NCBI GenBank assembly: GCA_028277465.1
Contig: JANQGF010000312.1
Location: forward strand, 1 to 41,859
Length of the DNA: 41,859 bases
Source: Chromatiaceae bacterium
GTDB taxonomy: Bacteria > Pseudomonadota > Gammaproteobacteria > Chromatiales > Chromatiaceae
Direction: 5' to 3'
Shown here: positions 25,638-41,859 of the stretch, piece by piece
Numbering within the stretch: the stretch's first letter is position 1
Layout: every line of letters begins with the position of its first letter
Translations under genes and position numbers: made by a program
Notes under the pieces: generated by a model
Told to the model about the DNA's origin: nothing
Database searches by the model: none
Seen by the model: only the letters and a program-made list of their open reading frames with translations

Positions 25638-25796
25638 AGGCGATTGCCGGAAATGTTTATACCAGATGGCGCCGGATTGAGGCTCGCCTTCAAGGAGCGC
25701 CACCAGGAGCATCGCTGGGCGATGTGACTGGTGGCGCGACACCGAAGGCGGGCGTCAAGACAAGTCAGATGGTATGAACATTGACAGAAATCGCCT
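25638..25796 (-). mobile_element. Miniature inverted-repeat element, copy 1
   Basis: This is 159 bases with ends AGGCGATT...AATCGCCT. In reverse orientation it is about 96% identical to the copy at 41701-41859 (about six differences by eye). The terminal inverted repeats are about 27 bases long and match in the outer eight (AGGCGATT) and inner thirteen (AATGTTCATACCA, one change in this copy). TA stands at both borders, as expected for IS630/Tc1-mariner-type insertion. It is too short to encode a transposase and must have moved by one supplied in trans. Confidence 0.8.
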
Positions 25797-30970: not shown

Positions 30971-32069
30971 ATGTTCGACATCAATCCCATTGCCGCTCAG
31001 ATCAACGACCTCAAGGGACGGGTGGAATCCCTCAGGGGGTATCTTTGACTATGTGGAAAGAAAGGACCGTCTGACCGAGGTCCTACGAGAGCTCGAAGAG
31101 CCCACGGTCTGGGGGGACCCGGAGCGCGCGCAGGCCCTGGGACGTGAGCGCGCCTCGCTGGAAGGGGTTGTCGTCACCATCGAGGAGCTCTCGTCGGGCC
31201 TCGCGGACGCCGACGACCTGCTCGCGTTGGCCGCGGATGAAGGTGACGAGGCAACCATGGATGCACTCGTCGCGGACCTCGGGCGCTATGAGTCGCGGGT
31301 GGGGGAGCTCGAGTTTCGCCGCATGTTTTCCGGGGAGATGGATGGCAGCAACGCCTTCCTGGATATCCAAGCTGGATCGGGCGGCACCGAGGCCCAGGAC
31401 TGGGCGGAGATGCTGTTGCGCATGTATCTGCGCTGGGGCGAGGCGCGCCGTTTCAAGACCGAGCTGATGGAGGTGTCGCCAGGTGAGGTGGCGGGGATCA
31501 AGTCGGCCACCGTCAAGTTCGAAGGCGATTACGCCTTTGGCTGGTTGCGCACCGAGACCGGGGTCCATCGTCTGGTGCGCAAGTCGCCCTTCGATTCCGG
31601 CAATCGACGGCATACCTCTTTCGCTGCGGTCTTCGTCTCGCCCGAGATCGACGACAGTGTCGAGATCGAGATCAATCCAGCGGATCTGCGCATCGATGTC
31701 TATCGGGCGAGTGGTGCTGGCGGTCAGCACGTCAATCGCACCGAGTCGGCAGTGCGTATCACGCATCTGCCGACTGGGACCGTGACCCAGTGCCAGAACG
31801 ACCGCTCCCAACACAAGAACAAGGACCAGGCGATGAGGCAGCTCAAGGCCAAGCTCTACGAGTTGGAGATGCAGAAGCGTCAGGCCAGTCAACAGGCGGT
31901 CGAAGACAGCAAGTCCGACATCGGCTGGGGTAGTCAGATCCGCTCGTACGTCCTGGATCAGTCGCGCATCAAGGATCTGCGGACCGGGGTGGAGGTCGCC
32001 AACACCCAAGCGGTCTTGGACGGTAACCTCGATCCCTTCATCGAGGCTAGTCTCAAGCGCGGTCTGTAG
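30971..32069 (+). CDS. prfB: Peptide chain release factor 2, with programmed +1 frameshift
   Basis: Translation from ATG 30971 ([20 protein letters not shown]...) reaches an in-frame TGA at 31046-31048 after 25 codons. A +1 shift on CTT-T (31043-31046) continues in the next frame as [16 protein letters not shown]... to 32069, giving a 365-residue RF2. The SPF anticodon-like motif (S205-P-F207, recognising UGA and UAA) and the GGQ hydrolysis motif (G250-G-Q252) fall at the same positions as in E. coli RF2. RF2 reads UGA, so when it is scarce ribosomes pause and shift, making more RF2. It heads the prfB-lysS pair with a 20-base gap. Confidence 0.97.
31034..31049 (+). promoter_or_regulatory. prfB recoding signal
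   Basis: AGGGGG (31034-31039) acts as an internal Shine-Dalgarno three bases before CTT (31043-31045) and the stop TGA with C after it (31046-31049). This arrangement is the same as in E. coli prfB and drives the +1 slip. Confidence 0.95.
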
Positions 32070-34843: not shown

Positions 34844-36670
34844 TTGTCGTCACATCAACCTAACCCGCCCGTTGACAGTCTGGTGCTCTACAAGGTCCGG
34901 CCAGCTCGGGTCGTGAGCGTCGGTGAGAAGATCGAGATCGAGCTCGACGGCGGACAGAGCAAGCGGGTGCGCGCCAAAGACGTCGAGCTGCTCCATCCGG
35001 GTCCGCTGCGCGACTTGTCCGAGCTGGCCCCTCAGGAAGGCGAGCTGAACGAGGCGTGGGAGCTCCTCGAGGGTGGGGAGACCACCCTGAAGGATCTGGC
35101 CGAGCTCGCCTTCAATGCCTTCACACCGGCCACCGCGTGGGCCGCCTGGCAGGGTGTCGCCGAGGGTCTGACCTTTAGCGGGACGCCGGGTGCTATCCAG
35201 GCGCGGAGCCGAGAGCTCGTCGAGCGCGACCGGGCCGAGCGGGCCGCAAAGGCGGCTGCCGCTCGGGATTGGCAGGCCTTTCTGGAGCGGATGGCTGCCG
35301 CCTCGCCCGCGCCGGAGGATGCGCCGCGGCTCGATGAGGTCGAGCGGCTGGCCCTGGGTCGGACCGACCGCAGCCGCGTCCTGGAGGCCCTTGGTTATCC
35401 CCAGACAGCGGAGAGCGCCCATCGTGCGCTGATCCGGGTGGGTTGCTGGGAACGCGACCACAATCCGCACCCGGTGCGTTGCTCCGCCCCGAGGGCCGAT
35501 CCGGATCTGCCGGTCCTGGAGGTGCCCGAGGAGGAGCGGCTCGATCTGACTCATCTACCGACCTTCGCGATCGACGATGAGGGCAACCAGGATCCGGATG
35601 ACGCGCTGAGCCTCGAGGGTGAGCGGCTGTGGGTGCACGTGGCCGATGTGGCAGCACTGGTGGCGCCGGACAGCGAGATCGAGCGTGAGGCGCGAGCACG
35701 GGGGGCGAACCTCTATCTCCCCGAGGACACGGTCACGATGCTCCCGGTCGCCGTGACCGAGCGGCTCGGGCTGGGTCTGCAACCGATCTCGCCGGCCCTC
35801 TCGTTCGGCATCACTTGCGGGGAGCAGGGCGATCTCCTCGAGGTCGAGGTTCACCGGACCTGGGTGCGCGTGGAACGCCTGACTTATGAGGCCGTCCAGC
35901 AGCGACTCGAGATGCCTCCTTTCGCTGCGATGCGGCGCATCACCAGCCGTTTTCGCGCCCGCCGCATGGCCAGCGGTGCCAGCGAGCTGGCCCTCCCCGA
36001 GGTGAGTATCCGGGTCGTCGCCGGGCGGGTGATCATTCGCCCGCTCCCACGCCTCGAGAGTCGCGCCCTGGTCACGGACGCCATGCTGATGGCGGGAGAG
36101 GGGGCCGCGCGTCTGTGTCTCGACCAGGGTATCGCGATTCCCTTCGCAACCCAGGCCGCGCCAGACAATGGGAAGCAACCGACCGATTTGGCCGGCATGT
36201 TTGCTCGGCGGCGCAGCTTCAAGCCGACCCGCCTCATGGCGGAGCCGGGGCCTCATTCCGGATTGGGTCTGAAGCTCTATACGCGGGCGACGAGTCCACT
36301 CCGACGTTACTCCGACCTTCTCGTGCACCAACAGATCCGAGCCCATCTGACCGGGTGCGAGTGCCTGTCATCGGAGCAAGTCACCGCGCGGGTTGCCGAG
36401 GCCGAAGCGGCGGCGGTCTCCATTCGTCGTGCCGAGCGGCTCTCGAATCAGCACTGGAAACTGATCGCTCTAGGATCCAACCCAGGCTGGCGCGGGGAGG
36501 CCGTGGTGGTAGGGCGCGAGGACCGCAAGGCGGTCCTGCTGCTGCCCGAGCTGGCGATGGAGGCGCGTGTCAGGATGCGCGACGAGGCGGCCCTGAATGA
36601 CCGCCTGCGCGTGGCCTTGAACGAGGTCGACATCCCCGGTCTGACCCTGAGCCTGCGCGTCCTCGGTTAG
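34844..36670 (+). CDS. RNB-domain exoribonuclease, RNase II family
   Basis: The 608-residue protein has an N-terminal barrel (VLYKVRPARVVSVGEKIEIELDGGQSKRVRAKDVELL), a helical linker, then the RNB catalytic domain with AIDDEGNQDPDDAL; D244, D250, D252 and D253 have the same spacing as RNase II D201, D207, D209 and D210. RLYTRATSPLRRYSDLLVH-type residues follow (LYTRATSPLRRYSDLLVHQQ). The C-terminus forms a short S1-like barrel. It is shorter than RNase R and lacks clear N-terminal cold-shock domains, so it is a divergent RNase II-like enzyme that degrades RNA 3' to 5'. The start is TTG 34844 with GGAGA upstream. Its stop codon TAG is built from the border of the miniature element at 36669. 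Confidence 0.88.
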   Translation: MSSHQPNPPVDSLVLYKVRPARVVSVGEKIEIELDGGQSKRVRAKDVELLHPGPLRDLSELAPQEGELNEAWELLEGGETTLKDLAELAFNAFTPATAWAAWQGVAEGLTFSGTPGAIQARSRELVERDRAERAAKAAAARDWQAFLERMAAASPAPEDAPRLDEVERLALGRTDRSRVLEALGYPQTAESAHRALIRVGCWERDHNPHPVRCSAPRADPDLPVLEVPEEERLDLTHLPTFAIDDEGNQDPDDALSLEGERLWVHVADVAALVAPDSEIEREARARGANLYLPEDTVTMLPVAVTERLGLGLQPISPALSFGITCGEQGDLLEVEVHRTWVRVERLTYEAVQQRLEMPPFAAMRRITSRFRARRMASGASELALPEVSIRVVAGRVIIRPLPRLESRALVTDAMLMAGEGAARLCLDQGIAIPFATQAAPDNGKQPTDLAGMFARRRSFKPTRLMAEPGPHSGLGLKLYTRATSPLRRYSDLLVHQQIRAHLTGCECLSSEQVTARVAEAEAAAVSIRRAERLSNQHWKLIALGSNPGWRGEAVVVGREDRKAVLLLPELAMEARVRMRDEAALNDRLRVALNEVDIPGLTLSLRVLG

Positions 36671-36830
36671 GCGATTATTTCTGTCAATTCTCATCCCACC
36701 TGGCTGGTCTTGACGCCCGCCTTCTGCGTCGCGCCAGCAGTCACATAGCGCAGCGATGCTCCTGCCGGCGTTCCTTGAAGGCAGACGCCAATCCGGCGCC
36801 ATCTGGTATAAACATTTCCGGCAATCGCCT
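36669..36830 (+). mobile_element. Miniature inverted-repeat element, copy 2, inside a stop codon
   Basis: This is 162 bases with the same ends (AGGCGATT...AATCGCCT) as the copies at 25638 and 41701, but it is clearly more divergent inside, so older. TA stands at both borders. The left TA supplies the T and A of the ribonuclease stop codon TAG. Removing the element and one TA would restore GGT-TAA, so the original stop was probably TAA. Confidence 0.78.
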
Positions 36831-36999
36831 AAGTCGGACCCAGAGTCCCGATGCCTTGATCTGGATCAGTTGAGTCCAGGATTGACAGCGCTTACCCTTG
36901 CAGCCTTGTGGATTTCGGCCAGTCCCAGAGCTGCAATTATGGTACCCCTTGCGTCGAGCGGGAGTGCCGCATCGCGCGAAGGCTCGAATCGACTCTGGT
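36831..36999. other. Gap after element copy 2
   Basis: With the element, the gene-free stretch is 36671-36999. In the part after the element I see no gene, repeat or clear terminator before the convergent M15-like gene. Confidence 0.4.
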
Positions 37000-37527
37000 T
37001 CAGGCACTCCACTGCCTGACTGCACCCGTGTCCAAATGGACGAAATCCGAGCGCGAATAGTAGCCGACCCCTCCGCGGTTGAGCGCGATGGCTGCGTTGC
37101 GGATGTATCGGGCTGATAAATCGGGGAAGCGAATATCGATGGCTTGGCCCTTGAGGTGGAGGCTGTTCTTGGCGACGCCTCGGGAGGTGCGACGAAGCAT
37201 GCGGTTCGTGCTGGGAGACCTATAAGCACTCAGAACGTGGAATCTGGCGCCTGGGTCGTCGAGCCGGCTCTTGACGTCGTAGAGCAGGTCGAACAACTGG
37301 GGATCCATCGCGATGGTGTCGCCGGTGCGGAAGTCGCGAAAGAAATGATTCAGCTTCTGGAGCGCACCGCGCTGATAACGGTCGCCGATTCTGTAGATGA
37401 CCTCGATCCGCTCTTCGGTGTGCAAATGATAGAAGGACAGGACTCGTGGTCGGTCAGTAAGTCGCCTGGCGAAGACAGGCGAGCAGGCCGCTGACAGCGC
37501 GGCCCCCAGGAAATAACGTCGGTTCAT
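37000..37527 (-). CDS. Tat-exported DUF882 / M15-like peptidase
   Basis: The 175-residue protein starts NRRYFLGAALSAA, a twin-arginine signal (RRxFL), with cleavage likely near VFA-RR. The mature part is the DUF882 (YcbK-like, peptidase M15A) fold: LSFYHLHTEERIEVIY, LNHFFRDFRTGDTIAMDPQLFDLLYDV, SAYRSPSTNRML, then the metal motif H124...D131 (NSLHLKGQAIDIRF) and H164 (FVHLDTG). This matches the zinc site of M15 D,D- or L,D-carboxypeptidase relatives. It likely acts on peptidoglycan, and a lytic transglycosylase gene lies divergently on the other side of the gap. A GGGGGGAAC site sits just before ATG 37527. Confidence 0.88.
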   Translation of the reverse strand: MNRRYFLGAALSAACSPVFARRLTDRPRVLSFYHLHTEERIEVIYRIGDRYQRGALQKLNHFFRDFRTGDTIAMDPQLFDLLYDVKSRLDDPGARFHVLSAYRSPSTNRMLRRTSRGVAKNSLHLKGQAIDIRFPDLSARYIRNAAIALNRGGVGYYSRSDFVHLDTGAVRQWSA

Positions 37528-38529: not shown

Positions 38530-38552
38530 ATCCGGCGTTTCAGGCAATCGCC

Positions 38553-38771
38553 TCAGTCTTCGCCGATCACGCGTTCCTCGCGCGGGAGCGAGAGCAGTCG
38601 TTCTGCCTCACCCTGCTGGCTCGCAAAGATGAGGCGATACTCGATGCCGTTCTGGCGGTCTTCGGCTTGGCGCCGGCCACGGACCAATGTGCGGGCGTCC
38701 TGGTAGCGCTCGAGCGTATCCAGATGCTCGAGCTGGCGCGGCGGCGAGATCTTGTAGACGAAGTAGGGCAT
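38553..38771 (-). CDS. Conserved hypothetical 72-residue protein
   Basis: The product begins MPYFVYKISPPRQLEHLDTL and continues with ERYQDARTLVRGRRQ and a charged tail ending REERVIGED. Its opening and size fit a small uncharacterised family found in sulfur-oxidising gammaproteobacteria (from memory; a search would settle it). It has no signal, membrane segment or cysteine. AGGGG lies about 11 bases before ATG 38771. It converges with the transglycosylase and is divergent from sat. Function unknown. Confidence 0.7.
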   Translation of the reverse strand: MPYFVYKISPPRQLEHLDTLERYQDARTLVRGRRQAEDRQNGIEYRLIFASQQGEAERLLSLPREERVIGED

Positions 38772-41700: not shown

Positions 41701-41859
41701 AGGCGATTTCTGTCAATGTTCATACCATCTGACTTGTCTTGACGCCCACCTTCGGTGTTGCACCACCAGTCACATCGCCCGGCGATGCTCCTGGTGGCGC
41801 TCCTTGAAGGCGAGCCTCAATCCGGCGCCATTTGGTATGAACATTTCCGGCAATCGCCT
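41701..41859 (+). mobile_element. Miniature inverted-repeat element, copy 3, at the window end
   Basis: This is the least changed copy for describing the element. Ends AGGCGATT...AATCGCCT, with terminal inverted repeats of about 27 bases that match at the outer 8 and inner 13. TA precedes the left end (41699-41700). The right border is the last base of the window, so the second TA cannot be seen. It is nearly identical to copy 1 in the opposite direction, suggesting recent spread. Confidence 0.78.

Follow-up and report, generated by a model that had tools for sequence, protein, structure and literature searches.

PIF/Harbinger-Tourist MITEs of eukaryotes are short, non-coding elements that reach high copy numbers and carry 3-bp TWA duplications. 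Within the IS5 family, members of the IS1031 group target TNA and produce a direct repeat of exactly 3 bp (PMC12016507). REPINs occur as hundreds of extragenic copies that form hairpins in which compensatory changes are common (PMC3116915). RUP and Correia-type elements are non-coding sequences of less than 200 bp with terminal inverted repeats (PMC2229807), and they use a TA dinucleotide. A search of the open-access PMC literature returned nothing relevant on stop-codon-targeting elements or on a Chromatiaceae MITE. The locus described here very likely records the insertion of a member of a foldback MITE family of the Chromatiaceae at a TNA site overlapping the native stop codon of an RNB ribonuclease gene, with the stop regenerated and the protein unchanged. 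What an earlier, sequence-only reading of this DNA had described as a single case is a family-wide pattern.

The window, the whole stretch of 41,859 nucleotides that was analysed, belongs as a single contig to the 4.3-Mb draft assembly of a purple sulfur bacterium, which comprises 418 contigs (Table 1). The RNB gene ends CTC GGT TAG (36662-36670), and G36670 is both the last base of the stop codon and the first base of the element, as the sequence-only reading had stated. Removing the element with one TA gives GGT TAA. That reading had also placed a mobile element exactly on this stop codon, which is borne out by at least 41 relatives in the same genome (89-100% identity in a similarity search) and by a pattern search of that genome, which returned 269 ends of one type against 0 in a reversed-pattern control. 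The other end type gave 367 matches against 23 in the control.

Table 1. Coordinates of the features discussed, as positions in the window.
Feature	Position	Strand	Remarks
RF2 gene	30990..32069		SPF and GGQ motifs in translation
RNase II-type (RNB) ribonuclease gene	34844..36670	+	608 aa; stop TAG 36668-36670; Pfam RNB, HTH_RNase_II, RNase_II_C_S1
Left target duplication TTA	36667..36669	+	its TA is stop bases 1-2; family TNA rule
Hairpin MITE	36670..36829	+	160 bp, 3 longer than the 157-bp family length through an additional ATT close to the left end; ends GGCGATT...AATCGCC
Right target duplication TAA	36830..36832	+	mismatched against left TTA
Terminal inverted repeat	36667..36676 / 36823..36832		TTAGGCGATT / AATCGCCTAA; 100% complementary
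YcbK-like gene	36999..37527	-	convergent with RNB gene; gene pair syntenic in relatives
Second complete MITE copy	25639..25795	-	duplication TTA/TTA; intergenic; on no called stop codon
Third MITE copy	41702..41858	+	at contig end; left flank TAA

The proposal that the insertion left the RNB protein unchanged held. The C-terminal S1 domain is intact and reaches residue 606 of 608 in the Pfam profile match, indicating a full-length enzyme. The position of the stop is native, because the majority of 52 Chromatiaceae orthologues terminate at the same ...LG* residue. The best named matches were Chromatiaceae such as Thiocystis and Thiobaca, with about 75% protein identity. Relatives keep RNB and YcbK in synteny, so the sequences on either side of the element are native neighbours. 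A chimeric assembly joint at this copy was ruled out by the synteny of RNB, YcbK and SLT in relatives. The description of the palindromic element as a new 3′ UTR of the RNB gene was likewise supported, and RF2 is encoded on the same contig, near the RNB gene, as claimed. UAG is an RF1 codon.

Between the convergent genes, an FNR/Anr-like box (TTGATCTGGATCAG, 36856-36869) is kept in several relatives (L061-L066), where a -10-like TATAACCT or TTAACCT follows about 22 nt after it. From these motifs, a small RNA could be driven from this site.

The family is non-coding and numbers about 270 copies in its own genome, with a mean identity of 92% to the consensus. Complete copies could be read at 86 listed places (83 distinct), mostly at exactly 157 bp, and none of the 83 lay inside a called gene. 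Matched 3-bp direct duplications flanked 58 listed copies, including TAA/TAA (29), TTA/TTA (20), TGA/TGA (4) and TCA/TCA (2), while 10 copies were flanked by inverted parts of the element. TNA duplications were also present at family copies in other genomes, and C was preferred just outside TNA on both sides (C-TNA-G). The element is therefore a MITE, being short, non-coding and multicopy with terminal inverted repeats (GGCGATT/AATCGCC) and a target site duplication, and its TNA target of exactly 3 bp is as expected for an IS5/IS1031-derived MITE. These results correct the target TA of the sequence-only reading as a rule: the family duplicates TNA, and the RNB copy, with TTA/TAA, is a mismatched one. 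A mismatch at N was found in about a quarter of TNA/TNA pairs, the RNB copy included. Palindrome correction was disfavoured as the general cause of mismatched duplications, with 10 palindromic and 8 other TNA/TNA mismatches; by our own estimate, these counts are about as expected for flanks varying independently.

Among the sampled Chromatiaceae, 25 of 146 genomes (its own and 24 others) and 16 of 61 genera carried the family, with identities as low as about 70%. When 369 genomes were sampled across the class, strong matches appeared, besides its own, in one genome of another family, together with one weak partial match. Genome G340 (L337, L340), from another gammaproteobacterial family, holds a related element with 79% identity and 328 first-look candidates, which suggests either transfer between families or a wider range. 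Many contigs of the assembly stop within or directly at a MITE copy, the window (41702-41859) among them, and the repeat probably breaks the assembly. In the window, GGCGATTGCCTGAAA follows the GAC TGA that ends a small minus-strand gene (38546-38560) and may be a degenerate element end seated on a further stop codon.

The element folds end to end with 61 pairs, 85% complementary across 37 copies from its own and related genomes. Changes on both sides were seen at 34 pairs. Double-changed cells numbered 231, compared with 88 in shuffles, which are the fairer control although they ignore relatedness, and 41-76 in slid controls, over which the excess is partly built in as the structure was derived from the same sequences. 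The fold of one copy alone was unexceptional against shuffles (z -1.5 as RNA), so the evidence for the hairpin is its covariation. The excess of double changes indicates that the structure is maintained, whether through selection or through arm-to-arm conversion. Selection on RNA from one strand was unsupported, as G-U (60) and A-C (96) mismatches were similar in number. No intrinsic terminator was found by a simple scan, and no Rfam covariance model matched 36500-37000 up to E=1. A full-length hairpin with compensatory changes is also what REPINs have (PMC3116915), and a REPIN/RAYT-type element could be considered in place of a DDE-transposase MITE. This is highly improbable, because a REPIN is an inverted REP pair without target duplication, whereas the flanks here follow the TNA rule, with 58 matched direct duplications against 10 cases of inverted element parts.

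The sequence-only reading had further proposed that the insertion turned TAA into TAG at the RNB gene, and this part was not established. The odds are about even between a native TAG that was kept and a native TAA that was changed. Stops among the 52 RNB relatives were TGA (37), TAA (9) and TAG (6). Orthologues that extend the protein or end in TAG without the element had been named as evidence against the proposal; none of the six TAG-ending relatives, or of the 52 overall, ends GGT TAG, and C-terminal extensions were of at most 10 residues, which does not clearly contradict it. With a TTA duplication, the empty site reads GGT TAG TCG; with a TA duplication, it reads GGT TAA GTC.

A 2-bp TA duplication in a TTAA site, changing a native GGT TAA to GGT TAG, has nearly an even chance. 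TA is present on both flanks of the RNB copy, and the orthologues of the Thiocystis relatives L061 and L062 end GGT TAA. Moreover, the L269 copy, also TTA/TAA, sits where two convergent genes share a stop and best fits a TTAA empty site, which gives both genes a stop, whereas the plain 3-bp reading does not. However, the 58 listed copies with matched duplications carry 3 bp, and among the mismatched listed pairs TAA/TTA, which a TA duplication leaves unexplained, is at least as common as TTA/TAA (7 vs 3). The 3-bp reading, rather than the TA reading, also restores the 26-nt spacing between the stop and a conserved box that is seen in L061, L062 and L065 (counted by hand). This match to three relatives favours a native TAG kept through a 3-bp TTA duplication, the right copy later changing from TTA to TAA, to which we assign a probability a little below one half. 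Such a history follows the family TNA rule, and TAG was the original triplet in four of the six TTA-type sister copies whose duplications are intact; the remaining two had TAA (L272) and TAT (L184). It nevertheless needs one substitution in the right duplication and a GGT TAG ending that was not seen among the 52 orthologues. In L272, the insertion changed TAA to TAG, and in L184, a stop was gained from TAT.

The family seats on stop codons above chance. In its own genome, 33 of 239 distinct element ends sat exactly on a stop codon, at offsets -3 or -2, in about 1.26 Mb of sequence partly selected for carrying copies, in which genes were called by a home-made codon-usage caller. Every other offset between -250 and +3 had 3 ends or fewer. 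At 23 ends, the TNA itself was the gene's stop (TAA 16, TGA 7), and at 10 ends TTA and the element's G made TAG. Non-coding TNA sites predict 6.4 such ends, or 9.9 after flank-sequence weighting, and 33 ends gave P=0.002 even with the weighted expectation doubled. By class, the counts were 16/104 for TAA against a null of 3.5% (p=7e-7; flank-weighted p=4e-5), 7/22 for TGA against 7.2% (p=6e-4; flank-weighted p=0.025) and 10/81 for TTA against 1.5% (p=4e-7; flank-weighted p=1.5e-5), the TTA class being inflated if insertion created some stops, as in the L184 copy. With TNA sites lying 4-60 nt past a stop as the reference, odds ratios came to 3.1 (TAA), 4.9 (TTA) and 2.0 (TGA, not significant). 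Other Chromatiaceae genomes had 24 of 130 ends exactly on stop codons.

The affected genes include uvrB, parC, glcE and nifN, whose products UvrB, ParC, GlcE and NifN are complete by profile coverage. The element had no significant preference for either orientation with respect to the stop. The L305 copy looks like L269, with one element at two convergent gene ends. Solo element ends of about 17-21 bp lie directly on stops of parC (L154, 4966-4982), an ADP-ribosylglycohydrolase-like gene (L208, 8294-8313) and a penicillin-amidase-like gene (L220, 2541-2561), and are perhaps relics of internal deletion.

We propose that a non-autonomous hairpin MITE was probably mobilised in trans by a transposase whose IS5/IS1031-like type we infer. 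Insertion at a TNA, preferably C-TNA-G, would overlap the native RNB stop codon. The upstream TNA duplicate, together with the first G of the element, would then regenerate a stop, with TAA giving TAA, TGA giving TGA and T-TA(A/G) giving T-TAG. Because the duplication re-creates TAA or TGA, and TTA with the G gives TAG, the protein would be spared, leaving RNB intact and making the element its 3′ UTR. A search for a transposase with matching ends gave none with PF13340 or PF13359, and four PF01609 hits that lack the ends. A 1-kb parent-IS candidate in L154 was rejected as host genes between chance or remnant ends.

The most likely source of the excess on stop codons is context preference combined with the persistence of insertions that do no harm, and not active targeting. 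It is unlikely that the transposition machinery is attracted to stop codons or to places where transcribed or translated regions end, though the excess persists when context is weighted and when nearby 3′ UTR sites serve as the reference. Divergent gaps were also not strongly depleted of copies (12 vs 19 expected, overall p=0.12), which points to mild selection against promoter insertions. On the other hand, part of the excess is already accounted for by context preference and selection, and the majority of copies lie off stop codons. We see a small but real chance that this Chromatiaceae-wide MITE is stop-directed, or is kept as a hairpin at mRNA 3′ ends, and so forms a semi-domesticated 3′-UTR module that also resets stop identity from TAA to TAG.

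As the TNA duplication and the first G can reproduce every stop codon, the ends of essential genes can be invaded without protein change. Stop-sparing insertion of this kind offers an element an easy way to reach hundreds of copies even where the genome is compact. The genes gain a new hairpin 3′ UTR, and the identity of the stop can change, as in L272. The family also offers a testable case of whether mobile elements seek stop codons or just survive there.

Compared with the known systems, the element shares 3-bp duplications and short, non-coding, high-copy form with PIF/Harbinger-Tourist MITEs, but it is bacterial, shows a stop-codon excess and has no known partner. Like the IS1031 group and its derived MITEs, it targets TNA and makes direct repeats of exactly 3 bp (PMC12016507), but searches of PF13340, PF13359 and PF01609 turned up no parental IS that has GGCGATT ends; here, the perfect terminal repeat is short and the whole element is a covarying hairpin. 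RUP and Correia-type elements are likewise non-coding, below 200 bp and bounded by terminal inverted repeats, but they use a TA dinucleotide, and the available part of the source does not describe stop-codon seating for them (PMC2229807). With REPINs, the element has in common hundreds of extragenic copies, a hairpin and compensatory changes (PMC3116915), and it differs from them in its direct 3-bp duplications, its terminal inverted repeat and its length of about 157 bp.
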